Positions 16,888-32,069 of a stretch of 44,660 nucleotides of DNA are shown here, one piece after another (the stretch's first letter is position 1; the number at the start of each line of letters is the position of its first letter). The DNA is from an uncultured bacterium (lineage in GTDB: Bacteria; Bacillota; Clostridia; Oscillospirales; Oscillospiraceae). The stretch lies in assembly GCA_949840775.1 (NCBI GenBank), contig CATKXO010000023.1, positions 1 to 44,660 of the forward strand, read 5' to 3'. The position numbers were made by a program, and so were the translations under genes. Under the pieces are notes generated by a model, which saw only the letters and a program-made list of their open reading frames with translations, was not told the origin of the DNA and ran no database searches.

Positions 16888-18273
16888 ATGAAACGAATGC
16901 TGTCTCTTGTCCTGGCCGCCGTTCTGCTGCTGGCCGGATGCGCCGGAGGAAACCAAAGCCCCAACGGCGGGGGCGAGCCTGTCCATGATGGAAAAGAACC
17001 CGTGAAAATGAGCTATGCCCTGGCTGAGCCGGTGTACCCGGAGTTCCCCCAGCAGCCCCAGTTCCCCGAGGACGGGGACTATGACGCCTGGAACGAGGCC
17101 TATCAGAAGTACATAGATGCGCTGATCGCCCTCCGGGGGGAGGGCAACCACGTCACCGAGGCGGAGCACGCCGCCCTGACCGCCTTCACCGCCAAAAGCA
17201 CTCCCCTGGTGCTGGCGGGACAGGAGGGGAAAAACGCCATTTACTCCCCCCTATCCCTGTGGTCCGCCCTGGCCATGCTGGCCCAGTGCGCCGACGGGGA
17301 CAGCCGGCAGCAGGTGCTGGACGCCATGGGCGCGGACGGCGTGGACACCCTCCAGGACCAGGTGGAGCACCTGTGGCGCACCCTGTACACCGACGACGGG
17401 ATGAGCACCCTGATTTTAAGCAACTCCATCTGGCTCAACAGCAGCTTGCAGGGGACCTATGTACAGGACACCCTGGATACCCTGGCCCAAAAGTACTACG
17501 CCGGGGCCTACGCCGTCCCTATGGGCAGCGGCGAGGCCGACCAGGCGGTGACAGAGTGGGTGGGGGAGCAGACCCGCGGGCTCATCGGAGGGGAGCAGCC
17601 GGTGGTGGAGACCAAGCCCGAGACCCTGGCCCTGCTGGTGTCCTCCCTGTACTACAAGGCCGCCTGGCAGGACGAGTTTATGCCTGAGCGGACGGAGACC
17701 GACACCTTCACCGGTGCAGACGGACAGGAGAGCCGGGTGGACTTTATGCACCGGACCGAGGACGCCAACTTCATCCGCAGGGACGGCTATCAGGCCGCCC
17801 GATTGCAGACCCACCTGGGGGAGATGGTCTTCGTCCTCCCCGACCAGGGGGTTGCCCCCGAGTCCCTGCTCCAGAACCAGGAGTTCCTCTCCCGGCTGGA
17901 GTTCTACGGGGACGCCTGCACCTGGGGGGAGGTTCAGTGGTCGGTGCCCAAGTTTGACGTGGACTCCGACCTGGACCTGATGGAAGCGCTCAAGGCTATG
18001 GGCGTCACCGACCTGCCCGACTTCGACCGGGCCGACCTGACCGCCCTCACCGATCTGGACGCCTTCCTCTCCGACGCCAAGCAGCTGGCCCGGGTGAAGG
18101 TGGACGAGAAGGGGGTGGAGGCCGCCGCCGTCACGATCATGGCGGCTTGCGGCGCCGGGATGCCGCCGGAGGACCCGGAGATCTGCGTCATGGACCTGGA
18201 CCGGCCCTTCCTCTTTATCATCCGCACCCAGGACGTGCCCCTGTTCGTGGGGATCGTCAATCAAATCGCCTGA
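16888..18273 (+). CDS. Secreted lipoprotein serpin 2
   Basis: A 461-residue serpin with signal peptide and lipobox (MKRMLSLVLAAVLLLAGC), a linker of about 80 residues rich in Pro, Glu and Gln that is absent from serpin 1, then the serpin core: NAIYSPLSLWSALAMLAQCA, LVSSLYYKAAW, hinge EKGVEAAAVTIMAACGAG and the signature DRPFLFIIRTQDVPLFVG. P14 is Val instead of the usual Thr/Ser, which may slow loop insertion. Counting from the hinge, P2-P2' lies around G-A-G-M. The different reactive loop suggests a different protease target from serpin 1 (inference). The ATG follows GGAAAGGAGAATCCGCC. Confidence 0.94.
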   Translation: MKRMLSLVLAAVLLLAGCAGGNQSPNGGGEPVHDGKEPVKMSYALAEPVYPEFPQQPQFPEDGDYDAWNEAYQKYIDALIALRGEGNHVTEAEHAALTAFTAKSTPLVLAGQEGKNAIYSPLSLWSALAMLAQCADGDSRQQVLDAMGADGVDTLQDQVEHLWRTLYTDDGMSTLILSNSIWLNSSLQGTYVQDTLDTLAQKYYAGAYAVPMGSGEADQAVTEWVGEQTRGLIGGEQPVVETKPETLALLVSSLYYKAAWQDEFMPERTETDTFTGADGQESRVDFMHRTEDANFIRRDGYQAARLQTHLGEMVFVLPDQGVAPESLLQNQEFLSRLEFYGDACTWGEVQWSVPKFDVDSDLDLMEALKAMGVTDLPDFDRADLTALTDLDAFLSDAKQLARVKVDEKGVEAAAVTIMAACGAGMPPEDPEICVMDLDRPFLFIIRTQDVPLFVGIVNQIA

Positions 18274-19153: not shown

Positions 19154-19531
19154 GTGCAAATCATTGGCAAGATTGACAGGAATATATACAGTGTGGTCTC
19201 CCCGCGCATCCAGACAGACGAAGTAATCATAACGGACGAACGAATTGCGCACATACAAAAACGCCACCCAAATACTTTTGAACAATATGCAAAATACATA
19301 CAAAAAATTATTGAGGAGCCTGATTATATATTGGAGGCAAACAGGCCAAATACCGCGTTTGTACTGAAGGAATTTACGGAGAATGATAAGCGGTTCCAAT
19401 TAATTTTGCGGCTTGCCGTAGAGGGAGATCAGCCCGGATACAAGAATTCGGTAATCACATTTTTGAACGTTGAAGAAAAGCGATATCGCAGATACTTGCG
19501 AACGAAAAATATCCTTTACAAATCCGAATAA
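19154..19531 (+). CDS. PBECR-like nuclease-fold protein
   Basis: A 125-residue protein resembling the PBECR group (phage barnase-EndoU-colicin E5/D-RelE-like nuclease fold) common as small genes or as the ends of phage and toxin proteins. Visible family parts are ITDERIAHIQKRHPNTFEQY, IIEEPDYILEANRPNTAFVL and NSVITFLNVEEKRYRRYL. The RHP and R-P-N-T residues are the likely catalytic set. The GTG at 19154 follows GGCGGTGAG and lies downstream of the -10 box, so earlier in-frame ATGs are not used. It is more AT-rich than its neighbours. No antitoxin gene is adjacent. Confidence 0.78.
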   Translation: MQIIGKIDRNIYSVVSPRIQTDEVIITDERIAHIQKRHPNTFEQYAKYIQKIIEEPDYILEANRPNTAFVLKEFTENDKRFQLILRLAVEGDQPGYKNSVITFLNVEEKRYRRYLRTKNILYKSE

Positions 19532-19543
19532 AACGACTATAAT
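19515..19543 (+). promoter_or_regulatory. Promoter of the small structured RNA
   Basis: TTTACA, 17-nt spacer, TATAAT, overlapping the 3' end of the PBECR-like gene. No start codon with a ribosome binding site follows. Confidence 0.7.
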
Positions 19544-19547
19544 AAAG

Positions 19548-19713
19548 ATAGGATAAGATGGTTCTTTGAGGTGGACAATTTCGTGGCATCCACACGCCGA
19601 TGGTACTGACAGGGGGAACCCGAGAGATGCAGGAGAACGCCACGCCTGCCAAAGAGCCCAACCTATGAAGGGGGCCGCAGAAGGCCGACACTCCGTAAAG
19701 AAGTGTCGGCCTT
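19548..19713 (+). ncRNA. Small structured RNA resembling a shortened 5S rRNA
   Basis: After the promoter, a closing helix forms from GGTTCTTTG (19560-19568) with CAAAGAGCC (19650-19658), extended by ATAGG with CCTAT. Inside are CGCCGATGGTACTGAC, GAGAGATGCAGG and ACGCCA, which match the loop E and helix IV-V side of 5S rRNA. The 5' half seems short: GTGGA and TCCAC close a 13-nt loop where helix III should be, giving about 100 nt instead of about 117. A terminator stem AAGGCCGACACT/AGTGTCGGCCTT ends at 19713. It could be a diverged or deleted 5S gene or an unrelated RNA. No 16S or 23S gene is present in the window. Confidence 0.5.
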
Positions 19714-19762
19714 TCGGCTAACCTGTAAAGAAATTCTATCTATTGGGACGGTGTAGTTATGG

Positions 19763-21487
<1,725 letters not shown>

Positions 21488-21522
21488 TTATCATATCACA
21501 CCCGGCGCAAAACTTCAACACT

Positions 21523-21792
21523 TTACAGTGTGATATTTTGATTGAGAATGCGATTTACTTTCTTTTCCGCAGTTTCGGCGTTTTCACTGAAACGGGCGTT
21601 GACAGTATAGATGGTGCCGCCAATCTCTCGTTCAAAGCTGATGGGGCGGGAATATTGATGTTCCCGGAACCATGCAAGACGCTGTTCCCGGCTCAATGTG
21701 GCGAGATAGGCGATTTCCTGTTCTACTTTCTCCCATACTTCCTCAACAATTTCCCATTCTTTTTCTGACAATTCGATTTGAACTGTGCTCAT
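21523..21792 (-). CDS. tnpW: TnpW-like element protein
   Basis: An 89-residue protein. The C-terminal part SFEREIGGTIYTVNARFSEN and the following charged helix match the small TnpW proteins of Tn4451-type elements, whose function is unknown. The N-terminal half is a charged helix (ELSEKEWEIVEEVWEKVEQE). The ATG at 21790-21792 overlaps the relaxase stop (ATGA), so the genes are translationally coupled. The recombinase start lies about 80 nt downstream. Confidence 0.75.
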   Translation of the reverse strand: MSTVQIELSEKEWEIVEEVWEKVEQEIAYLATLSREQRLAWFREHQYSRPISFEREIGGTIYTVNARFSENAETAEKKVNRILNQNITL

Positions 21793-23171
21793 CTGGCAAC
21801 GCTCCTTTCCCTCTGCCTGCTTTGTGTTCGGCCCATGCGCTGGGCCTGCATTTCCTGTTCCAGCTTCAAATTTTCCTTCAGCCGGTCGCTCCGGGCGAGT
21901 ACGCCTTCGGCGGTTTTGATGTCCTTTCGGCAGACAGCCATCGCCGCCGTCAATCGGTCACGCTGGGCCTTGATTTGGGCAATTTCCGCCCCATCGTCAC
22001 AGTGGCGCAGACGGTTGTAGCATTTCTGGCGGGCGGCCCCCAATTCCTTTATTTCAGCCTGTTTTTCGCTGATAAAGTCGGCAACAGCTTCCACCGTGTC
22101 CAGCTTTTCCCGGCAAATCAACTGTGCCTGTCGGCTGATAGCGTCCAGACGGCGGCATTCCTCCCGCAGCTCTGGGGATAACGGGCGGTGATTGCTCCCT
22201 TTTGGCAGGATACCCAAACAGTAACAGTAGCGGAGATACAGTCCCCGGAAGCCGCCGATCTTCTTCACTGTGCTGAAAGAGCCGTTTAGTCGCATGCGTT
22301 TGGGGTGGTGCCGCTGGACGGGGATGGGCTTGTACCGCTGATAGCCCAGGTCGTAGGCATACCGCTGGCGGTTTTTCTCAATCCGCTCCCGGAGGGCAGG
22401 GAGGTCGTAGTCCTCACCCAATCGGTAGAGCCGAACCGCCTTTTTACTGCCGATCCGCCGCAGGGTGGCATATTTGTGGGCAGGGTTGGCGTCCAGCTCG
22501 TAGCCCTGCTCCCGGAGGGCTTTCCGCAGGTCGTTTCCGTCCACGCTGACCTTGATGGCGGCGTCCAGGGCTTCCCGCATCAGGTTGTATTTGGTGGGTT
22601 CGCCCCTCTTTTCAGCGAAGTAAATGCTCCGGGGCGTTTTCCCTTTTGGATTTTTGATAGTGGAAAGCTGGTATTCTTTGCATAAATCATCCGATAACTG
22701 GCGAAACTGATAGTAGGCCCGCTTGCCGCAGTTGAACTTTCGACCGTCCCACAAGCCCACAGAATTGACGACAAAGTGGTTATGATAGGTGCCGGTGTTG
22801 AAGTGGGTAGCGACCAATACCTGGTATTCGTCCCCCCACATCCGTTTTGCCAGTTCCACACCGAGTTGGTGGCACAGCTCCGGGGTGACCTCGCCGGGTT
22901 TAAAGCTCTGATAGGCGTGATAGGCCACGTTGCCGCCCGTCTTGCCAAACCGTTCCTTGACCGCCTGCATTTCCTGAAAAGCGGTGTCCCGGTTGCAGTT
23001 CACGCCGGTGACGAACATGGCGCGTTCCTGGCCCTCAACGGTCTTTTCCTCGTTGGCGGCATAGTGGAGAACATTCCGCAAATCCGAGTAGATGGTTTTC
23101 TCCGGGTTTTGGGCGTAGTCCACCACACGGGCCAGACTGTCCTTAACAGGCCAGATTTTAGTCGTCGCCAT
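21789..23171 (-). CDS. Relaxase / mobilization protein (MobP or TnpZ type)
   Basis: It nicks the transfer origin so that the element can be mobilized by a helper conjugation system. The 460-residue protein starts MATTKIWPVKDSLARVVDYA, a typical start of this group, and has the metal-binding motif ATHFNTGTYHNHFVVNSV (H...HNH) near residue 135, followed by helical C-terminal segments. The catalytic residue is probably an early Tyr (VVDYAQNP or IYSDL). The ATG at 23169-23171 overlaps the MobC gene; an ATG nine bases earlier is also possible. No coupling protein or type IV secretion gene is present, so it depends on a helper. Confidence 0.92.
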   Translation of the reverse strand: MATTKIWPVKDSLARVVDYAQNPEKTIYSDLRNVLHYAANEEKTVEGQERAMFVTGVNCNRDTAFQEMQAVKERFGKTGGNVAYHAYQSFKPGEVTPELCHQLGVELAKRMWGDEYQVLVATHFNTGTYHNHFVVNSVGLWDGRKFNCGKRAYYQFRQLSDDLCKEYQLSTIKNPKGKTPRSIYFAEKRGEPTKYNLMREALDAAIKVSVDGNDLRKALREQGYELDANPAHKYATLRRIGSKKAVRLYRLGEDYDLPALRERIEKNRQRYAYDLGYQRYKPIPVQRHHPKRMRLNGSFSTVKKIGGFRGLYLRYCYCLGILPKGSNHRPLSPELREECRRLDAISRQAQLICREKLDTVEAVADFISEKQAEIKELGAARQKCYNRLRHCDDGAEIAQIKAQRDRLTAAMAVCRKDIKTAEGVLARSDRLKENLKLEQEMQAQRMGRTQSRQRERSVAR

Positions 23172-23463
23172 CGTCTGCATCCCCGTTGGTGTAGGCCGTC
23201 AGGATTTGCCCCGCCAACTCGTCCAGTTGGGCCGCTGTCCGCTCTATTGGCTGGGTAGCGAGGTTATTCCGCAGGGCGTTTACCTGCTGATAAAGGGTGT
23301 GAAACCGCTGGCGGGGAAACGCCGCCGCAGATTTGCCAGCGCCTACCCGCCGGAGATACCCGGACAGAGACAGGCCGCACCGTCTGGCCTGACGCTCCAG
23401 CTTCCGCTTTTCCTGTTCCGTCACCCGCACTTGGATGGCTGTCGTTCTCTTTCTGTCGGTCAT
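23158..23463 (-). CDS. MobC-like relaxosome accessory protein
   Basis: A 101-residue protein with an N-terminal ribbon-helix-helix (TTAIQVRVTEQEKRKLERQA, then CGLSLSGYLRR) and a C-terminal helix with NALRNNLATQPIERTAAQLDE, the usual MobC layout. It binds near the transfer origin and helps the relaxase. The ATG at 23461-23463 follows AAGGAGCGGATCAGA. It is the first gene of the mobilization unit; the origin of transfer should lie just upstream. Confidence 0.9.
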   Translation of the reverse strand: MTDRKRTTAIQVRVTEQEKRKLERQARRCGLSLSGYLRRVGAGKSAAAFPRQRFHTLYQQVNALRNNLATQPIERTAAQLDELAGQILTAYTNGDADDGDD

Positions 23464-23760
23464 TCTGATCCGCTCCTTTCTGACCGGGGTGATAGGGGTG
23501 GAACCCCTCTCAGCGCAAAGCGCCGCCCGCTTTTGGGGTGCCCCCGGCAACACAAAAGCTATGCTCGCTACCCCACAAGACAGGGCGACGGGCTGTTCGT
23601 TCGGTGGCTTCTTTCTATGGAGCGTTGGATAAGCTGCTGTTCTATCCGGGAGCGTTCCGCCCCCTTTCAGCGGCGTTGTCTCGCTCACTCCCTGGGTTGG
23701 GAGGTCATGGCGCAATTATCACTCTCGGACGGTCATTCAGTTGTCAGGGGCAAAAAAGAA

Positions 23761-23837
23761 GCCGGTACATAGACGCACCAACCCCAGCGGGAGCTTTCCT
23801 CTCGCTGGGGTTCTTGTGTGGTTGTCTATGTACCGGC
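23761..23837. promoter_or_regulatory. Large two-level hairpin in the mobile element
   Basis: Perfect outer arms GCCGGTACATAGAC (23761-23774) and GTCTATGTACCGGC (23824-23837) enclose an inner stem (23779-23792 with 23799-23812, one G-T pair). On the minus strand a T-rich run TTCTTTTTT follows, so it can act as a terminator protecting mobC from cargo-side antisense transcription. It could also be part of oriT or a small RNA. Confidence 0.7.
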
Positions 23838-23952
23838 TGAAAAGCCGTATTCAGTTCGCCCATTAAATGGGAGTTTCAGTTTAACATATAGAACTGGTGT
23901 TTGTCAATACATTGTTGACGATTTGCTCAAATTTTAAGAGCTACCTTGTGGA

Positions 23953-23981
23953 TTGCACTTTTCGACTTGTTATGCTATAAT
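23953..23981 (+). promoter_or_regulatory. Promoter of the cargo operon
   Basis: TTGCAC, 17-nt spacer, TATAAT. The leader before the first gene is about 125 nt. No other promoter of this quality is seen up to 28515. Confidence 0.8.
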
Positions 23982-24114
23982 TTGCCTTGGGTGCTGACTT
24001 TATATGGGCATTCACCACAAGATCAATTGTCATTACAGCTTTTTGAATATATCTGCACTTCTTATCTGGCTGTATAAGCCTCTTTTCTATCACTTTGATT
24101 TGGAGGGTAAATAT

Positions 24115-25797
24115 ATGGATGCAAACGAAAACGCTATTTATGCCGCAATGGAGCAGGAAGACGGTCTTGATGTTGACCTTGATGAACTTGAAGATAAACT
24201 TGAATCTGAAATTGATGGAGACTTAGCTGAACTTATCGGCATTATTGAGGACAGAGAACGCATTAGCAACCCCGACGCACTCGGTGAGACAGTTATGAAT
24301 GTGGTTTGGGAGCAATTCATGAATCAAGTCGCTACTACTGCTGGAGTAGACTTTATCGCAGAGAATGGTGGCATGACACTTGATTTGAGTGATGACGCTC
24401 ACATTCAAACAACAGAAAACTTCGCAAAAGGAAGGATAGCCAAGCATAACACGGAAATTGATTATCAGAAACGCCATGATGAATGGGAAGTAAAATTTCA
24501 ACACGATGATAGTGGAGAGCGTATTGTTGATACACACTACAGAGGTAAAGATACTGCTTACAAGCTCCAGAAGGGTGCCCGCGCCGACTATGACAAGGGC
24601 AGGCCAAAGGGTTCTGATACAGCGGCAACAAACATGGATCACGTTATTGCCGCTGCGGAAATTATTAGAGACGCTGAAACTGCAACACACCTCACTCATG
24701 AGGAAGCCGTTGCATTTGCGAATAGCGAAACGAACTTAAATCTGATGGATTCATCGGCAAATCAATCCAAAGGCGATATGAAGATGGAGGAATGGCTTGA
24801 GTGGGAAAGGAACGGAGAGAAACCTGCTGACCGGTTTGATATTGACGAGGATCAGTTACGAGAAAGAGACAGACTTGCCCGTGAAGAATATGAGAAACTT
24901 AAAGCGGAAGGCAAGAAGCGTAGCATAGAAGCAGGAAGGAAATCACAGAAACAAGAACTCTTCCGTATAGGAGGAAAGGCTCTCAGAACTGCACTTATGA
25001 TGATTTTAGCGAGTTTGGTAAAAGAGCTATTTGGAAAACTGATTCTTTGGCTTAAATCGGCAGAGAAAAATCTTCACACATTAATTGAGTATGTGAAAAC
25101 AGCTATAATATCTTTCGTTGGTAAATTCAAGGAACTCCTGATTAATGTCAGTTCATCTGTGCTGACAACCATAGCAACTGCAATCATCGGCCCGGTTGTT
25201 GGCGTAATAAGAAAAACAATCACTTTACTCAAGCAAGGTTGGAAGTCTTTGAAGGAAGCTGTGCAGTATTTGCGTGACCCTGCAAACAAAGGCAAACCCT
25301 TTCGCTATCTCTTGCCTGAAATCGGAAAGATTGTCGTAGCCGGATTGAGCGGTGTTGGTGCTATTGTCCTTGGTGAGTTTATTGAAGGAATACTGATGGC
25401 TTTCCCTTTAATGTCGGTAGATATCCCGGTACTTGGCACTCCAGCGAATCTTGTCGGGATGCTGTTAGGGGCAATTATATGTGGAGTAATCGGCGCGATT
25501 GCTTTGAATTTAATTGATAAGTTCATTGCAAAGAAACAGGCAGCAGATAATCAGGTTGCTCAAATTGATAAAAAGAATGAAATCCTTGAGAAGCAGGAAA
25601 TATTGACCACTGTAAAGGTAATAAAACTGCAAAAAGCGAAAGCAGAGGCAGGGGAGGGCATCACTGCAAGGCATATTGAAGCTGCGGATGAGTTTCAGAA
25701 AGCCAAGGACGAAATAATGGAATCAGATGAGGGCATGGATACTAAAGAAAAAAACAAGAGGATTTCTGGTGACTTAGACAAGCTATTGCAGCTCTAA
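24115..25797 (+). CDS. Cargo gene A: HNH-like nuclease domain fused to a multi-pass membrane domain
   Basis: A 560-residue protein not recognised as a named family. The N-terminal 120 residues are acidic and helical. Residues 140-225 look like an HNH (beta-beta-alpha-metal) nuclease: NMDHVIAAAEI (D175-H176), TNLNLMDSS (N207) and ANQSKGD (N216, K219), spaced as in HNH enzymes of the H-N-N variant. A charged linker (245-282) leads to about four hydrophobic segments near 288-313, 345-366, 405-432 and 445-471. A charged coiled-coil tail ends in DLDKLLQL. Start: GGAGGGTAAATAT before the ATG at 24115; an in-frame ATG at 24004 has no such site. It is first in a four-gene operon. Codon use is AT-richer than in the host. 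A membrane-tethered nuclease effector is the inference. Confidence 0.8.
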   Translation: MDANENAIYAAMEQEDGLDVDLDELEDKLESEIDGDLAELIGIIEDRERISNPDALGETVMNVVWEQFMNQVATTAGVDFIAENGGMTLDLSDDAHIQTTENFAKGRIAKHNTEIDYQKRHDEWEVKFQHDDSGERIVDTHYRGKDTAYKLQKGARADYDKGRPKGSDTAATNMDHVIAAAEIIRDAETATHLTHEEAVAFANSETNLNLMDSSANQSKGDMKMEEWLEWERNGEKPADRFDIDEDQLRERDRLAREEYEKLKAEGKKRSIEAGRKSQKQELFRIGGKALRTALMMILASLVKELFGKLILWLKSAEKNLHTLIEYVKTAIISFVGKFKELLINVSSSVLTTIATAIIGPVVGVIRKTITLLKQGWKSLKEAVQYLRDPANKGKPFRYLLPEIGKIVVAGLSGVGAIVLGEFIEGILMAFPLMSVDIPVLGTPANLVGMLLGAIICGVIGAIALNLIDKFIAKKQAADNQVAQIDKKNEILEKQEILTTVKVIKLQKAKAEAGEGITARHIEAADEFQKAKDEIMESDEGMDTKEKNKRISGDLDKLLQL

Positions 25798-25818
25798 TCA
25801 AATGGGAGGTATGAACGG

Positions 25819-26175
25819 ATGAAAATTTATACTGGACTATTTATAGTTGGCGGATTGGTAGTTGTAGGAACCTCAGTTTACTTGGCTTATCAGAAAAAAC
25901 AGTCAAATAATGCCAAACACACTGAAGAACAGGAGCAAAAAGAACCACTTATGGTTGGACAATCGGATATGCACTCTGAAGTACCAACCGCTCAAATTCA
26001 AAAGGTAAAAGCGGAAGTAGCGACATCAGTTGTGGAACGCCATATAGACGCTTCTGAGACTGTAAGAGAATCAATGAGTGCCATTTTTTCCTCTGATGAT
26101 GCAGAGAAAATGATTACCGAGAATACCGAAAAACTTGATAAAATCAGAAAAGAGTTGGATGATATTCTTGAGTAA
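25819..26175 (+). CDS. Cargo gene B: small membrane-anchored protein
   Basis: A 118-residue protein with one N-terminal membrane helix (YTGLFIVGGLVVVGTSVYLA, residues 4-23), a charged linker, and a helical C-terminal half (about 58-118) predicted to form a coiled coil. No signal-peptidase site is evident, so it is likely a bitopic membrane protein with its bulk in the cytoplasm or outside. No family recognised. The ATG follows GGGAGGTATGAACGG, 21 nt after gene A; gene C starts 13 nt downstream. The fixed position suggests that it is part of a membrane complex with A and C. Confidence 0.7.
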   Translation: MKIYTGLFIVGGLVVVGTSVYLAYQKKQSNNAKHTEEQEQKEPLMVGQSDMHSEVPTAQIQKVKAEVATSVVERHIDASETVRESMSAIFSSDDAEKMITENTEKLDKIRKELDDILE

Positions 26176-26188
26176 AGGGGCCTAACTT

Positions 26189-27400
26189 ATGTCTGAAAAC
26201 GAAGGAAGCAAACTTGCCATTAATGATATAAAGAGACATAGTTTTGAATCTGCAAAACAGTCTCTCAGAAGATATGCCGAGGAAAATCAGGGGAGTCCTG
26301 ACCTTGTCAAAGTTCCGACGGATAGCGGCCTCTTTGGATGGTTCGATCACAAAGTAACTGGTGACGAGTTAAACGAATTGACTGCACAAATTCAAGATTA
26401 CTTTATCCGATTTAATCAAGTTAATCAAGGGATGCTCAAGGAACTTGTTCAAGTCTATAAAGCATTGGATGCGTTAGATAAGGACTATATTACTGCGATT
26501 GTTGACTCAATTAAAGCAACGGAGAAGGTCAATAATAAAGCAAAAAAGAATAGGCAAGATATTGAGGACAGTGTGGCTAATCAAGAGAAAATGATTGAAG
26601 TCCTTAAAAACTTTAAGAAAAAACTTGAAAAACTTGAACACCTTACTGATGTCGATAGAGCGTGGAAAATGCTGAGTGAACAACAGGATACGCTCCTGTT
26701 GCTGATTCATTTCAAGGAAGAACTCACAAAAATCGAACATATTGATGATGTTGATGCGATTTGGACACATCAAAACGAAATTGATGATCAGATTAGCGAA
26801 CAGTGTGCTAATCTTGTTCAGGTGGAAAATGCAGTTAAGGACGTAGAGGAAAACCTTGCTGAGTTGGTCACTTTCAGGGAAAATTTAGAAAGAGTCCAGC
26901 ATTTAGGGGATATTGATTCCCTATGGGGTGATGTTTCTGAAATTAAAGCTGACATTATCAGCAGAAAAAAAGAACTGGCCACACTAACTTCTGATTTTGA
27001 GGCTCAGAGAAAAAGACTCGGCATTATTGAAGAAAACCTAAAGGAGCAAATGGACAAATCATTTCTTCTTTCCGAGCGACTTGATGAAAGTCTTGAAGTA
27101 ATTGAAGCCTCTATTGCGGAAACCAAGGAGAATATAGTCAAGGTGGAGAATAAGGCCGCTTCACAAAAAAAACTTCTTGAGGAAACAAAAGTAGAGATAG
27201 ACGATCGGCTTAGTACCCTTGAACAGAGTACTGCTAAAATGATTGAAGATCTTAGAAGTATGATGGCAGATGAGAATAGTTCACTCATTGCTCACTGTGA
27301 AAAACTAACAAGCAAAGTGAAATATGCTCTTTGGCTTTCTGGCGGCACAATTGCTGTTACGGTTGTTCATTTTGTCCTCAGTTTAATGGGGGTGCTTTAA
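26189..27400 (+). CDS. Cargo gene C: tail-anchored coiled-coil protein with three 18-residue repeats
   Basis: A 403-residue protein, almost all helical. Three copies of a motif occur at residues 142-159, 175-192 and 229-246, with cores HLTDVDRAW, HIDDVDAIW and HLGDIDSLW. The pattern is F-[KR]-x-x-L-x-[KR]-[LIV]-[EQ]-H-[LI]-x-D-[VI]-D-x-x-W. Long coiled coil continues to about 375, then one C-terminal membrane helix (residues 380-402), so it is tail-anchored. The N-terminus has GLFGWFDHKVTGDELNEL, a possible small docking part. No named family recognised. The start ATG follows AAAGGGGCCTAACTT. The stop codon overlaps the gene D start by one base (TAATG). It may be the scaffold acted on by the AAA+ protein of gene D. 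Confidence 0.78.
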   Translation: MSENEGSKLAINDIKRHSFESAKQSLRRYAEENQGSPDLVKVPTDSGLFGWFDHKVTGDELNELTAQIQDYFIRFNQVNQGMLKELVQVYKALDALDKDYITAIVDSIKATEKVNNKAKKNRQDIEDSVANQEKMIEVLKNFKKKLEKLEHLTDVDRAWKMLSEQQDTLLLLIHFKEELTKIEHIDDVDAIWTHQNEIDDQISEQCANLVQVENAVKDVEENLAELVTFRENLERVQHLGDIDSLWGDVSEIKADIISRKKELATLTSDFEAQRKRLGIIEENLKEQMDKSFLLSERLDESLEVIEASIAETKENIVKVENKAASQKKLLEETKVEIDDRLSTLEQSTAKMIEDLRSMMADENSSLIAHCEKLTSKVKYALWLSGGTIAVTVVHFVLSLMGVL

Positions 27401-28515
27401 TGGAAAACCGATATTCCCGTGAACTTTTAGACTTGGCTTCAAAACTTGACGCTGTAATAGAGGGTAGAGGTGAAGTTATAAAAGATGCACTCAATGTAGC
27501 TGAAAAACAAGATGAAAATGCTACGGTATCCCTGCTTGAGCATATCTCTAAGGTTGTCAATGATGAGTCCCTGCCTCAAAGTATTAAAATGATTGCTAAA
27601 TCTGTAAAGAACAGTATTCTCATGTTTTATGGATATGAGTCTGTCATGGGAATATGCGGTCACCGCCCCAATGAGGACGAGGACACAAGGACGCTTGATG
27701 AACTTCTTCTCGAACTAAATCAGCTTGTTGGACTGTCTAAAGTTAAGGCAAGAGTGAATGACCTTATTGCGTTTCAAAAAGTGCAGCTACTTAGAGAGAA
27801 GATCGGCCTTAAGTCGCAAAAAGGAACCTTGCACATGGCTTTCACAGGAAATCCTGGTACTGGTAAAACTACGGTTGCAAGAATAGTTGGACGAATTTAT
27901 AAACAACTTGGTCTCTTATCAAAAGGACATTTTATTGAGGTGTCAAGGACTGACCTAATTGCGGGCTATCAGGGACAAACAGCACTCAAGGTAAAGAGTG
28001 TGATTGAGAAAGCTAAAGGAGGGGTGCTGTTTATCGATGAGGCATATAGTATTACTGAGAATGATCACAGTGATTCGTATGGTCGAGAGTGCTTAACTGA
28101 GCTTACAAAGGCACTTGAAGATTACAGAAAAGACTTGGTTGTAATTGTCGCAGGATACACTGGCCCAATGCAACATTTTTTCGAGTCGAACCCAGGCTTG
28201 AAATCAAGATTCAACATATTCCTTGAGTTTGGCGATTATTCAGTGGATGAGTTGATGAAGATGCTAATTTACCTGTGCGACAAAAGCGATTATAGGATGG
28301 AAGAAGAAGCTTTATCTGCCACTCGCTTGTTTATTCAAGAGCAGGAACAAAACAAAGGGAACAACTTTGCAAATGGTCGTTTGGTAAGAAATATTTTTGA
28401 ATGGTTAATAGCAAACCACGCTCGACGAGTTTATACTATTGACACCCCGGATCAGGAAATGCTTTCTACAATCTCTATTAGTGATTCTACCTTTGAAGGA
28501 TTTTGTTCGCAATAG
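27400..28515 (+). CDS. Cargo gene D: CbxX/CfqX-type AAA+ ATPase
   Basis: A 371-residue AAA+ protein of the CbbX/SpoVK/EccA clade, which remodel protein complexes. Residues 1-100 form a helical N-terminal part without known family. LNQLVGLSKVKARVNDL at 106-122 is the typical lead-in. Walker A is GNPGTGKT (150-157), the pore-loop region AGYQGQTALKV (188-198), Walker B VLFIDEAY (209-216), the arginine finger lies in NPGLKSRF (R270), and sensor 2 in NGRLVRN (325-331). All key residues are present, so it should be active. Start: GGGGGTGCTTTA before the ATG, coupled to gene C. In ESX secretion and Rubisco activation such ATPases act on a partner encoded nearby; here the partners would be A-C (inference). 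Confidence 0.92.
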   Translation: MENRYSRELLDLASKLDAVIEGRGEVIKDALNVAEKQDENATVSLLEHISKVVNDESLPQSIKMIAKSVKNSILMFYGYESVMGICGHRPNEDEDTRTLDELLLELNQLVGLSKVKARVNDLIAFQKVQLLREKIGLKSQKGTLHMAFTGNPGTGKTTVARIVGRIYKQLGLLSKGHFIEVSRTDLIAGYQGQTALKVKSVIEKAKGGVLFIDEAYSITENDHSDSYGRECLTELTKALEDYRKDLVVIVAGYTGPMQHFFESNPGLKSRFNIFLEFGDYSVDELMKMLIYLCDKSDYRMEEEALSATRLFIQEQEQNKGNNFANGRLVRNIFEWLIANHARRVYTIDTPDQEMLSTISISDSTFEGFCSQ

Positions 28516-28539
28516 TTATTTGCTAATACGGGGGCAGAG

Positions 28540-28596
28540 GTGGAAAACAAACGGAAGCAGACAATTGATTTGCAAGACATTAAAGCCAATAATTGA
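28540..28596 (+). other. Possible 18-codon truncated gene start
   Basis: A GTG-initiated frame reads VENKRKQTIDLQDIKANN and stops. The start follows GGGGGCAGAG. It looks like the beginning of a longer element protein cut off early, possibly a scar where the cargo operon was inserted. The rest of the 28516-28660 gap holds no gene that can be seen. Confidence 0.3.
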
Positions 28597-28660
28597 TTGG
28601 CCTCGTTGAACTGGACTGTTTTTTCAAGTAAAACAAATCAAACTGTTTCAAGCAGTTCAT

Positions 28661-28703
28661 AATAGAGAAATGCTGCCCTAAAACAAGGCAGCATTTCTCT
28701 ATT
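28661..28703. terminator. Strong bidirectional hairpin between cargo operon and tnpV
   Basis: A perfect 17-bp stem, AATAGAGAAATGCTGCC with GGCAGCATTTCTCTATT, with a 9-nt loop. It ends the cargo transcript and the convergent tnpV transcript. Confidence 0.8.
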
Positions 28704-28707
28704 ATGT

Positions 28708-29082
28708 TCAGTATTGCGAATAGATTAGTTCAGCATAAACGATTTCTTCCGCTTGGGTCTTGCAGATATTCATTAACCCAACCCAGCGCATTTGATTATC
28801 TGCTTTAAGCTGTTCTGTAATACCCTCTTGCGCTGCCAGCTGCTTTATAAGCTGAGAAAACATATCTTCCGCCTGTTGGTCGATGTCAGCCAAGTGGCTA
28901 TCCAGCTTCCCGCTGAGTAGCCAAGCATTGTAAAGGGCTTTCCTGTGTTCTCGCAGATACCGCCGCCTACGCTGGCCCCAGACACCCACAGGAACACTTT
29001 CCGGCACAGCGAGGTTTGGGAGAAGATAGTCTCCCTCTCGGCAATAAGTCCTGCCCATTTGCTCAAATGTGCATTTCTCCAT
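28708..29082 (-). CDS. tnpV: TnpV-like element protein
   Basis: A 124-residue protein with the typical TnpV pattern: YLLPNLAVPES, GVWGQRRRRYLREHRKALYN, LLSGKLDSHLADIDQQAEDM and a C-terminal QAEEIVYAELIY. TnpV occurs in Tn4451-type elements and its function is unknown. The ATG at 29080-29082 follows GGGGGTAAATATC. It is the last gene before the proposed right end, and is transcribed into the element. Confidence 0.85.
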   Translation of the reverse strand: MEKCTFEQMGRTYCREGDYLLPNLAVPESVPVGVWGQRRRRYLREHRKALYNAWLLSGKLDSHLADIDQQAEDMFSQLIKQLAAQEGITEQLKADNQMRWVGLMNICKTQAEEIVYAELIYSQY

Positions 29083-29150
29083 GATATTTACCCCCAAAGT
29101 GTTGAATATCCTTGCAATTCAATCACTTTCGGCTGGCTTTACAAAAGTAT

Positions 29151-29181
29151 TGGGTGGAACTTCCTTACGAAGTTCCACCCA
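29151..29181 (-). terminator. Terminator of the copA-csoR unit, next to the element's right end
   Basis: TGGGTGGAACTT pairs with AAGTTCCACCCA (12 bp, 7-nt loop); on the minus strand ATACTTTTG follows. The left edge overlaps the proposed attachment repeat TATTGGG. Confidence 0.7.
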
Positions 29182-29197: not shown

Positions 29198-29461
29198 TTA
29201 CTCTGCCAGCTTATCAAGCAATGCGGCCAGCTCCTCCAGCTTGGCGTCGGTGTCGCCGGTGGAAACCGCCTCCCGGACGCAGCAGTCCATGTGGGCCCGG
29301 AGGACCATGCGGTTGGCCTTTTTCAGGATGGACTGGGCGGCCATGATCTGGCTGGAGACATCCAGGCAGTACCGGTCCTCCTCCACCATCTTCAAAATGC
29401 CGTCAATCTGGCCCCGGGCGGTTTTCAGCAGGCGGTTGACCTGGGCGTGGTCGGCCTTCAC
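29198..29461 (-). CDS. csoR: Copper-sensing repressor CsoR
   Basis: An 87-residue all-helical regulator of the CsoR/RcnR family. The Cu(I) ligands are in place with the CsoR spacing: C32 (RYCLDVSSQ), H57 and C61 ([10 protein letters not shown]). [19 protein letters not shown] at the start is the DNA-binding helix pair. Copper binding releases the operator. It starts with GTG overlapping the copA stop (GTGA). It is located after copA, so it is repressed by its own product through the promoter upstream of copA. Confidence 0.93.
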
Positions 29462-32031
29462 TGGACGGACACCACCTCATAGCCCGCCTCTGTGACGGCG
29501 TCGGTGAGGACCTGGTTGTCCACGTCCTTGCTGAGGGTCAGGGTGGCGGACTTCCCTTCCAGGCTCATCTCCACGGCGGACACCCCGTCGATGGCGGACA
29601 GGGCCTTCTCCACCCGTCCGGTGCAGTGGGCGCACATCATGCCCTCAATCTTCATGGTCTTGTTCATGGTTTTTCTTCCTCCTTGATTTGGTTTATCCTT
29701 CAACTCCAGGGGACAGGCGCCGTTACAGGCGAGGGCCGCCGGAGTGTCAGACCGGTATTTGCTCTTGAAAAAGCGCAGGCGCAGGGCGTTGGTCACCACC
29801 GTCACCGAGCTCAGGCTCATGGCGGCGGCGGCAAACATGGGGTTGAGCTGCCAGTGGAGGGCGTAGTAGAACACGCCGGCAGCCAGGGGGATGCCCAGGG
29901 AGTTGTAGAAAAAGGCCCAGAACAGGTTCTGCTTGATGTTCCGGATGGTGGCCTTGGACAGCTCCACGGCGGCAGCCACGTCCAGCAGGTCGGACTTCAT
30001 CAGCACGATATCCGCGCTCTCGATGGCCACGTCGGTGCCCGCCCCGATGGCCAGGCCCACCTCCGCCCTGGCCAAGGCGGGGGCGTCGTTGATGCCGTCC
30101 CCCACCATGGCTACTTTCTTGCCCTCGGCCTGGAGGGCAGCCACCTTCCGCTCCTTGTCCTGGGGCAGCACCTCCGCCATGACCTGGGTGACCCCCAGCT
30201 CCCTGCCGATAGCCTCGGCGGTGCGCTGGTTGTCCCCGGTGAGCATCACCACCTCCAGCCCCAGCTCCCGGAAGGCGGCGACAGCGTCTCTGCTGGTGGG
30301 CTTGGGGGTGTCGGCCACGGCGATGATACCCAGTAGTTTTTTCTCGGTCTCATCCCCGAAGTAGAGGGGCGTCTTACCCTGCGCGGCCAGCTCGTCGGCT
30401 TTCGCCGCCAGCGGCCCTGGGTTGATGCCCGCTTCCTGCGCCATGGCCCGGTTGCCGCCAAAGCAGACGCTTTTGCCAATCGTAGCCCGAACGCCCCGGC
30501 CGTGAACCGCTGTAAATCCACCCACTGAGGTAATCGGAATGCTGCGCCGCTCGGCCTCCTCCACAATGGCGGCGGCCAGGGGGTGCTCCGAAGGGCTTTC
30601 CAGACATAAGGCAGTGCAGAGCAGACCCTCCTCGCTGTTTCCTGACGCTGGGATGATATCCGTCACCACCGGCTTGCCCTGGGTGAGGGTGCCCGTCTTG
30701 TCCAGCACCACCGTGTCGATGGTGTGGAGGGTCTCCAGGGCCTCGGCGGACTTGATGAGGATGCCGTTCTCCGCCCCCTTGCCGGTGCCCACCATAATGG
30801 CCACGGGGGTGGCCAGCCCCAGGGCGCAGGGGCAGGAGATGACCAGCACCGCCACCCCGGCGGTGAGCGCCTGGGTAAATCCGTGGCCGGTGACCAGCCA
30901 AGCTGCGGCGGCAATGAGGGCGATGGTCATGACCACCGGGACGAAAATTCCGGACACCTTATCGGCCAGCTTGGCGATGGGGGCCTTGGAGGCGCTGGCC
31001 TCCTCCACCAGACGGATCATCTGGGCCAGGGTGGTGTCCTCCCCCACCCGGCTGGCCTCAAAGGTGAAGAAGCCCGACTTGTTGATGGAGGCGGCAGCCA
31101 CCTTGTCTCCCGGGCCCTTGTCCACGGGGAGGGACTCGCCGGTGAGGGCGGACTCGTCCACGGCGGATTGGCCCTCCACAATCACCCCGTCCACCGGGAT
31201 GGACTGGCCGGGACGGACCACCACCCGGTCCCCCACCTGGACCTCCTCCACGGGAATCTCCACCTCGGCGCCGTCCCGGAGGACGGTGGCCGTCTTGGGA
31301 GCCAGGTCCATCAGACGGCTGATGGCCTCCCCCGTCTTGCCCTTGGAGCGGGTCTCCAGAAATTTGCCCATGGTGATGAGGGTGAGAATCATGCCGGCGG
31401 ACTCGAAGTACAGGTCCATGTGGTACTTGGCCACCAGTTCCATATCCCCGCGGCCCAGGCCGAAGCCCATTTGGTAGATGGCGAAGACGCCGTAGATGAC
31501 GGCGGCGGCAGAGCCCACAGCGATCAGGCTGTCCATATTGGGGGCCCGATTCCAGAGGGTTTTGAAGCCCACCTTGTAATACTTGTCGTTGAGATACATG
31601 ATGGGCAGGGTGAGCAGCAGCTGGGTCAGGCCGAAGGCCACTGCATTCTCGTGACCCACCAGAAAGGCGGGCAGAGGGGCCCCCATCATGTGGCCCATAG
31701 AGATATAAAACAGAGGAATCAGGAAGACAAAGGACCAGAGCATCCGGTGTTTCATCCCGGCCAGCTCCTGGGCCATAGCGTCCTCCCGGGGGGCGGACTG
31801 GTCCTTTGCTTTCCCCTTCTGGGGCAGGGAGGCCCCGTATCCGGACTGTATTACCGCATTGATAATATCCTGATTGGAGAGGACGGCCTCGTCGTACTCC
31901 GCCGTCATGGAGTTGGTCATCAGGCTGACGGAGGCGGTTTTCACCCCCTCCAGCTTGTTCACCGCTTTCTCCACATGGGCGGAACAGGCGGAGCAGGTCA
32001 TGCCTGTGATGTTAAACTTCTGTTTTGCCAT
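29458..32031 (-). CDS. copA: Copper-exporting P1B-type ATPase with CopZ-like domain fused at the C-terminus
   Basis: It exports Cu(I) across the membrane. The 857-residue protein has an N-terminal heavy-metal domain (GMTCSAC, C13 and C16), eight predicted membrane helices with the CPC metal site ([13 protein letters not shown]), the phosphorylation site [18 protein letters not shown] and [11 protein letters not shown]. After the last helix and a Cys-containing linker ([13 protein letters not shown]), a second metal-binding domain covers residues 789-857 ([16 protein letters not shown]800 and C803). That domain has the length and sequence of free CopZ chaperones. An internal ribosome binding site and ATG could make it separately. 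The ATG at 32029-32031 follows AGGTGAAAGAT. Confidence 0.95.
29665..29684 (-). promoter_or_regulatory. Internal ribosome binding site and ATG for a free CopZ
   Basis: On the minus strand AAGGAGGAAGAAAAACCATG lies inside copA, in frame with it. Starting here gives a 69-residue protein (29458-29667), the usual CopZ length. Confidence 0.65.
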
Positions 32032-32069
32032 ATCTTTCACCTGACTTTCCAAGGGTTGATACATTTACC

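Follow-up and report, generated by a model that had tools for sequence, protein, structure and literature searches.

Positions 24115–28515 of a 44,660-nucleotide contig from an uncultured member of the Oscillospiraceae (GenBank assembly GCA_949840775.1, contig CATKXO010000023.1; hereafter the window) encode four proteins, A to D, in an operon that is carried as cargo by a Tn4451-like integrative mobilizable element. The A-B-C-D operon is a real unit. On the basis of its gene content and genomic setting, we consider it moderately probable that this unit is mobile and protects against phages (or other invaders) by means of a nuclease-type effector anchored in the membrane.

Genes A (24115–25797, 560 amino acids), B (25819–26175, 118 amino acids), C (26189–27400, 403 amino acids), and D (27400–28515, 371 amino acids) lie on the forward strand with all four frames open, and are separated by 21 nucleotides, 13 nucleotides, and a 1-nucleotide overlap (-1). 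A is a predicted membrane protein that combines an HNH-like cassette with a C-terminal tail, B is a small protein that carries a copy of that tail, C is a predicted coiled-coil rod, and D is an AAA+ ATPase. These coordinates confirm a preliminary description of the window, drawn from its letters, in which four genes in one direction with the same gaps were said to be richer in A and T than their surroundings: guanine-plus-cytosine (GC) content is 0.38–0.43 across the five 1-kb blocks from 24001 to 29000 and 0.48–0.70 in all other blocks of the window. The same description had assigned membrane segments to three of the four products. A simple hydropathy scan, which was the basis for placing A, B, and C in the membrane, agrees and yields four hydrophobic segments in A, one at the N-terminus of B, one at the C-terminus of C, and none in D.

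Distribution and Co-inheritance of the Operon

A profile search of genome contigs with A identified 19 loci (numbered here with the prefix L) on contigs titled Bacillota, Bacteroidota, and, in one case, Treponema; many of these derive from metagenome-assembled genomes and some from isolates. A homolog of C followed A in 18 of the 19 loci and a homolog of D followed in 14; in a check suggested by the preliminary description, A, C, and D were thus found together in unrelated genomes. Among the five loci without D, two contigs end inside C (L010 and L015), and the genome of L015 encodes a D-grade gene (587 bits) close to the beginning of a different contig; the remaining three (L019, L022, and L024) lack D. 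A separate gene B was detected at L007, L008, and L025, on both of two Lactococcus plasmids (L003 and L004), and on a viral contig (L122). The complete operon is encoded on these two plasmids, where it is near-identical, and on the viral contig, where it is preceded by genes that by eye resemble those of serine recombinases. Relatives of A were identified in 4 of 72,556 plasmid records, with the operon present only in L003 and L004, and in one viral contig. Within the phylum, A was identified in 2 of 398 genomes, the window's own included.

The genes have also been inherited together. Pairwise distances across 12 loci, calculated for A without its cassette, for the N-terminal module of C, and for D, were correlated between A and C (rho = 0.71), A and D (rho = 0.52), and C and D (rho = 0.59); none, one, and eight of 2000 shuffles, respectively, gave values as high. 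Distances of whole A and D were weakly correlated (rho = 0.13, reached by 535 of 2000 shuffles), and the value of 0.52 emerged after removal of the cassette.

Proteins other than C and D occupy the equivalent positions at a few loci. At L022, a 425-residue protein (L022:12284–13561) without a PADLOC match at 0.001 is encoded after C in the place of D. At L024 (11668–12912) and at L005 (7416–8501), A is followed by a coiled-coil protein whose C-terminus is hydrophobic and which shows no detectable relationship to C; an association between A and a tail-anchored rod may predate the present C.

The Mobile Element and Its Cargo Slot

The element comprises positions 19683–29180 (9.5 kb), limits that were set because an empty site is present in a genome of the same genus (L037/L041). 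In that genome, sequence corresponding to window positions 19489–19682 (99.5% identity over 194 bases) joins position 29181 directly, and the junction has a 2-bp AA overlap and lies within an inverted repeat. Encoded on the reverse strand of the element are a large serine recombinase of the TnpX type (19763–21439; Pfam Resolvase, Recombinase, Zn_ribbon_recom, and DUF4368), a MobA/VirD2-like relaxase (21789–23180; Pfam Relaxase, 136.9 bits), a NikA-like mobilization accessory protein whose true start is uncertain (23158–23715; Pfam NikA-like, 58.9 bits), and TnpV (28708–29097; Pfam TnpV, 145.4 bits). With a TnpX-type recombinase, TnpV, a mobilization gene, a 2-bp target, and a clean empty site, the element is a Tn4451/Tn6104-like mobilizable transposon, and the operon, previously described as cargo of a mobilizable element of undefined extent, can be placed within exact limits. 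PMC3158075 describes the same recombinase type, TnpV, MobA-type gene, and 2-bp target for the Tn4451/Tn6104 family, with a difference in cargo: catP in Tn4451 and other genes in Tn6104, as opposed to A-B-C-D here. The insertion lies inside an inverted repeat that resembles a shared terminator of genes for a CsoR-type metal repressor and a P-type metal ATPase, and the element adjoins these two genes (29198–32064).

To define the cargo of sister elements, DNA of the recombinase-mobilization half was matched in 30 of 60 genomes (the window's own included), from which eight places were taken (L042–L048 and L050) in addition to the empty-site contig L041 and the A-C-D locus of genome G074 (L049). 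The tnpV end matched at 20 further places, not counting that in the window, across 19 of 400 genomes, and 19 of the 20 were retrieved (all except that in G774). Eleven slots between the mobilization genes and tnpV were scored (L043, L044, L045, L047, L050, L052, L053, L054, L055, L060, and L061). The count leaves aside L042, where the contig ends at the mobilization genes; L046 and L048, where the chassis is rearranged or broken; L051, L056, L057, L058, L067, L068, and L069, which comprise only 0.4–3.3 kb; and L059 and L062–L066, where tnpV is accompanied by a distant chassis or none.

Restriction, Abi, or Avs-type PADLOC matches were identified in 8 of these 11 slots. Type II restriction occurs with Vsr and AbiTii/HEPN-like genes at L043, with an AriA-like ATPase at L044, and with an AbiU-like protein at L053; at L052, one of two cargo proteins scanned gave a match, which is to the restriction enzyme family seen at L043. 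L045 encodes a type I methylase/specificity protein in a slot where a restriction gene was not recognized, L054 encodes an Avs5-like protein, L060 a type IIG enzyme, and L061 type III modification and restriction genes. A single end of the element is visible at L053 and L054, the other end falls at a contig edge at L061 and L050, the chassis of L060 is distant (35–42% identity), and L047 and L055 carry a different mobilization gene. Sister elements therefore mostly hold defense genes in the slot that the operon occupies in the window, an outcome that the preliminary description had named as support, and the Tn4451-like cargo slot appears to be a defense hotspot in this bacterial family.

Defense Genes Around the Operon

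Genes that surround the operon at the 19 loci are likewise rich in defense families, in agreement with a check suggested in the preliminary description. At a threshold of 1e-10, 73 PADLOC families were recorded among 137 neighboring open reading frames (ORFs) and 6 among 137 control ORFs, a tally of families and of matches per family rather than of distinct ORFs hit. The neighbor set comprised 137 of 233 ORFs of at least 100 amino acids (those scanned being 110–1000 amino acids, within 4.5 kb of the operon at 19 loci), and the control set comprised 137 of 317 random ORFs (110–700 amino acids) from 20 windows in 6 of the 19 genomes. Some of the neighbor families are generic, such as WYL (five ORFs) and helicase-like models. 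When 10 large neighbors were scanned singly, four matched PADLOC at 1e-15: a CBASS cyclase beside L007, which is adjoined by a CBASS E2 protein, a WYL protein beside L014, mad3 beside L019, and TmtA beside L023. Taken with the 8 of 11 cargo slots, the difference of 73 versus 6 families places the association of the operon with defense islands and slots above the control.

The same setting admits an explanation in which the operon acts for the mobile element more than for the cell: at the membrane, A would cut the DNA of competing plasmids, transposons, or superinfecting elements as they enter, and so exclude or destroy them. This is consistent with the presence of the operon on a mobilizable transposon, on plasmids, and on a viral contig. 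Against it, chromosomal loci also sit among PADLOC families, and the sister slots mostly encode restriction and Abi-type genes. Because such sister cargo is active against phages and plasmids alike, the setting cannot separate service to the element from defense of the cell. We regard the element-serving explanation as unlikely, but as the strongest of the alternatives considered here.

Protein A Carries an Exchangeable HNH-Like Cassette

The central part of A has been exchanged within an otherwise conserved protein. Identity between A of the window and the similar protein P0009 is 83% over residues 1–106, 20% over residues 107–260, and 79% over residues 261–480, whereas the cassette of P0009 is 71% identical to that of L025, with flanks at 52–53%. 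The break in identity is repeated between L021 and L016 (71, 17, and 78%). We define the cassette as approximately residues 107–260 (24433–24894, forward strand), with an HNH-like core at residues 166–221. Over 16 loci, distances between cassettes were uncoupled from those of their own flanks (rho = 0.20, reached by 266 of 2000 shuffles). Comparison of the cassette with C gave rho = 0.44 (54 of 2000), and comparison with D gave -0.13 (1277 of 2000). Exchange of an effector part within a retained chassis would, we infer, be expected of a conflict protein.

Exchange of the cassette also bears on whether the operon is a toxin-immunity or addiction module that stabilizes the element, with A as a membrane toxin or nuclease restrained by B, C, or D. 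An exchangeable cassette, residence on mobile elements, and the possibility that the rod and tail proteins hold A in check are all compatible with such a module. Yet the same A-C-D order surrounds both cassette types (type 2 at L021 and L025, type 1 at most others), with no partner gene specific to a cassette, and the operon includes no secretion or export genes. We therefore think addiction an improbable function.

The preliminary description had noted H176, N207, and N216 of A in HNH spacing. An alignment of 41 A proteins shows no variation at N207, N216, or K219 and almost none at H176, and the motif is retained in the distant relatives L005, L006, and L121, which otherwise differ widely. 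The predicted model of A has a mean predicted local distance difference test (pLDDT) score of 67.4 and a predicted template modeling (pTM) score of 0.44; its best-modeled part is residues 91–280, with block means of 77–95 and two blocks at 60 and 63. Around D175-H176, N207, and N216-K219, the model comprises a strand (174–176), a strand (208–210), and a helix (213–219). HNH nucleases are marked by a D/E-H ... N ... N/H motif on a beta-beta-alpha core, of which strand-strand-helix is the order. We use the label HNH-like only: the proposed domain is backed by motif conservation, predicted fold, and a weak profile-profile match, and finds no counterpart among curated HNH models.

A also resembles a protein of a candidate defense system in PADLOC. 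A of the window matches PADLOC's PDC-M40B with 57.8 bits (A residues 108–479; profile positions 68–449 of 547), and its distant relatives score 227 (L121), 294 (L006), and 241 bits (L005). Judged by these scores, A is a divergent relative of PDC-M40B, one of the PDC-named systems that PMC11811056 presents as unpublished PADLOC candidates. L121, L006, and L005, which occur without C and D, share the HNH-like motif and a hydrophobic C-terminal part with A; the window has, in addition, the tail motif, B, C (the rod), and D (the AAA+ protein). None of B, C, or D matches a PDC-M40 partner model at E = 1, and the term PDC-M40 was not found in the literature searched. The relative at L121 (7159–10614) is from a Paenibacillus genome that also encodes a full A-C-D locus. 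Its neighbors are a gene that by eye resembles a WYL regulator and, where the window has C and D, a glycine-rich protein of the PDC-M09A type (294 bits).

The Tail of A and Protein B

The C-terminal tail of A (25582–25794, forward strand), with the motif RHxxA ... LDxLL, is duplicated in B. Alignment of the A tail with B by hhalign gave a probability of 97.8% (E = 7e-13), compared to 0.2–3.5% for three controls, and the A profile matches B in three genomes from position 451 or 453 to 558. B is, as predicted from sequence, one TM (transmembrane) helix joined to the same kind of tail as in A, that is, a membrane-anchored copy. At L007 and L008, where the tail of A reads TREQA, B retains RHxEA, as if B had taken over the role of the tail from A.

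Presence of RHxx[A/V] in A tracks C, as the motif was identified at 19 of 22 loci with C and at 0 of 4 without it. C is therefore at least as good a candidate for the partner of the tail as D, although this association is a hint, given that L003 and L004 are near-identical and only four loci are negative. A strict pairing of D with the A tail was considered and dropped: L022 has the tail and C without D, and L019 has A with a degenerate tail and C without D.

Proteins C and D

C comprises a conserved N-terminal module, a long helical stretch, and a C-terminal hydrophobic helix (predicted model: mean pLDDT 70.5, pTM 0.26). A pattern search located three HLxDIDxxW-type motifs at residues 151, 184, and 238 (26606–26938, forward strand). 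The repeats vary among loci. L016 (11763–16502) encodes a C of 1579 amino acids in which 23 almost identical repeats recur every 58 residues exactly, a number that could depend on assembly because the locus is one assembled scaffold, whereas the pattern was not found in C of L017–L020 and L022. Other complete C genes range from 216 to 532 residues, a variation that holds irrespective of L016.

D was correctly described at the outset as an intact AAA+ protein, and matches Pfam AAA (69.4 bits) and AAA_lid_6 (48.1 bits), both above cut-off. It has a P-loop/Walker A motif, Walker B, the GY of sensor 1, and conserved arginines, with G252-Y253, R270, R327, and R330 invariant in 16 aligned D proteins. 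The best NCBIfam match is SpoVK, with scores below the equivalog cut-offs for SpoVK (282.9 of 422.95 bits), CbbX (236.9 of 459.25), and EccA (211.3 of 466.65). These scores indicate that D is an AAA+ protein of the CbbX/SpoVK/EccA clade and none of those named equivalogs. It shares their classical AAA core and signature residues and differs in an N-terminal part of its own of approximately 95 residues and in a client that is probably encoded in its own operon. Of these three, SpoVK functions in sporulation, CbbX with Rubisco, and EccA in type VII secretion.

PMC10659427 describes members of the clade as chaperones, each dedicated to a single client or context, which makes a client in the operon of D the natural guess. 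The same description could suit a housekeeping or stress complex in which D is the dedicated chaperone of a membrane protein complex and A is no nuclease, an explanation with which the lack of HNH model matches for A also agrees. That D falls below the SpoVK, CbbX, and EccA cut-offs, that A is rare in the phylum (2 of 398 genomes), that the cassette has been exchanged between similar A proteins, and that the surroundings are PADLOC-rich all argue against such a complex, to which we assign a low probability.

Evidence Weighed Against a Defense Function

The preliminary description had proposed a membrane-based defense system in which the AAA+ protein would sense or remodel a complex of A, B, and C and release a nuclease. 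Co-occurrence, defense-rich surroundings, and defense-type sister cargo support a defense system. Since A and C occur without D at L019 and L022, D is not strictly required; a D-grade gene was not found in the genomes of L019, L022, and L024 (none, 248 bits at best, and none, respectively, compared to 587–630 bits for true D).

Further observations count against defense by a nuclease-type effector. Relatives of A were detected in 0 of 50,697 phage records. Three of the 11 scored cargo slots hold non-defense genes (radical SAM with HxlR at L047, an ECF-type sigma factor at L050, and HhH-GPD/Ada repair genes at L055), and no PADLOC match at 1e-15 was found for 6 of the 10 large neighbors scanned singly. 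H176 is absent from L020, which reads DET where other loci read DH or EH. Pfam GH-E matched A of the window with only 13.4 bits (E = 0.12) against a cut-off of 25, and no HNH family match was obtained at E = 0.05 across 41 A members or at E = 0.5 in the three distant relatives. Profile-profile comparison to 20 PF01844 domains gave low probabilities: 31% for nine diverse rows, in catalytic register, 11% for the three distant relatives, 5.5% for 24 A rows, 0.9 and 1.2% for the two cassette types, and 1.9% for L121 alone, with controls (eight column shuffles and other regions) at 0.7% or less. Finally, PMC12409345 reports that two other PDC candidates were inactive in one test.

Proposed Function and Comparison to Known Systems

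A possible mechanism can be outlined for the anti-phage or anti-invader module. A would be held in the membrane by its glycine-rich hydrophobic helices, with a topology in which the exchangeable HNH-like cassette faces the cytoplasm. C would form a tail-anchored coiled-coil rod whose repeats may set its reach and whose N-terminal module likely docks the RHxxA ... LDxLL tail of A and B. B, as a second membrane-anchored copy of the tail, might serve as a bridge or decoy. The CbbX-type AAA+ ring of D may contact the tails to assemble, restrain, or re-set the complex. Entry of foreign DNA, presumably that of a phage, at the membrane, or an accompanying disturbance of the membrane, could be the trigger that shifts the complex, upon which the cassette would catalyze cleavage of nucleic acid. 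A defense machine of an undescribed kind, with a cartridge-like nuclease cassette, a repeat-tuned rod, and an AAA+ ring that acts on the A/B tail to switch the nuclease at DNA entry, is a more specific proposal that we advance tentatively and consider rather doubtful in its entirety.

Likeness to SNIPE is one of concept only: PMC13190303 describes a single protein with GIY-YIG and DUF4041 domains in which a membrane-held nuclease acts on incoming phage DNA. The window differs in its four genes, HNH-like cassette, rod, and AAA+ protein, and neither GIY-YIG nor DUF4041 was among the Pfam matches of A–D at E = 1. Zorya is similar in pairing a long helical, membrane-anchored rod with a nuclease-type part. 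MotA/ExbB/TolQ or MotB-type domains, as in Zorya, were likewise absent from the Pfam matches of A–D at E = 1, C differs in being tail-anchored with one TM helix, and weak PADLOC matches to ZorA were confined to the rods of L005 and L024 (E ~1e-4). In predicted Type III-A CoCoNuT defense operons, a SpoVK-family AAA+ protein is encoded beside a glycine-zipper protein, according to PMC11090510, an arrangement similar to that in the window; McrBC-type, VWA, or other CoCoNuT genes are not among A–D. No passage on CbxX or SpoVK was found in PMC13092281. A description of the A-B-C-D operon was not found in the literature searched, a search that mostly excluded subscription papers.

Sequence Signals and Neighboring Genes

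The preliminary description had identified one good promoter ahead of A and a strong hairpin after D. The possible promoter (23953–23981, forward strand) has a perfect extended -10 element (TGCTATAAT), but its -35 element, TTGCAC, is poor (3 of 6 positions to consensus) and a consensus promoter scan did not report it. The hairpin 3' of the operon (28658–28706) is real, with 20 bp and -31.4 kcal/mol, but has no T-run and was not reported by a terminator scan. A few kilobases outside the element, the window encodes a bacterial serpin (16888–18273; Pfam Serpin, 203.6 bits).

Significance

If the operon functions in defense, it would be one of a small number of systems in which a nuclease-type effector is kept at the membrane, and the CbbX/SpoVK clade of AAA proteins would gain a role in immunity. 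The exchanged cassette, the rod of variable length, and the tail copied into a separate protein would then offer natural handles for tests. The cargo slot beside tnpV in Tn4451-like elements is a candidate place in which to find more defense genes.

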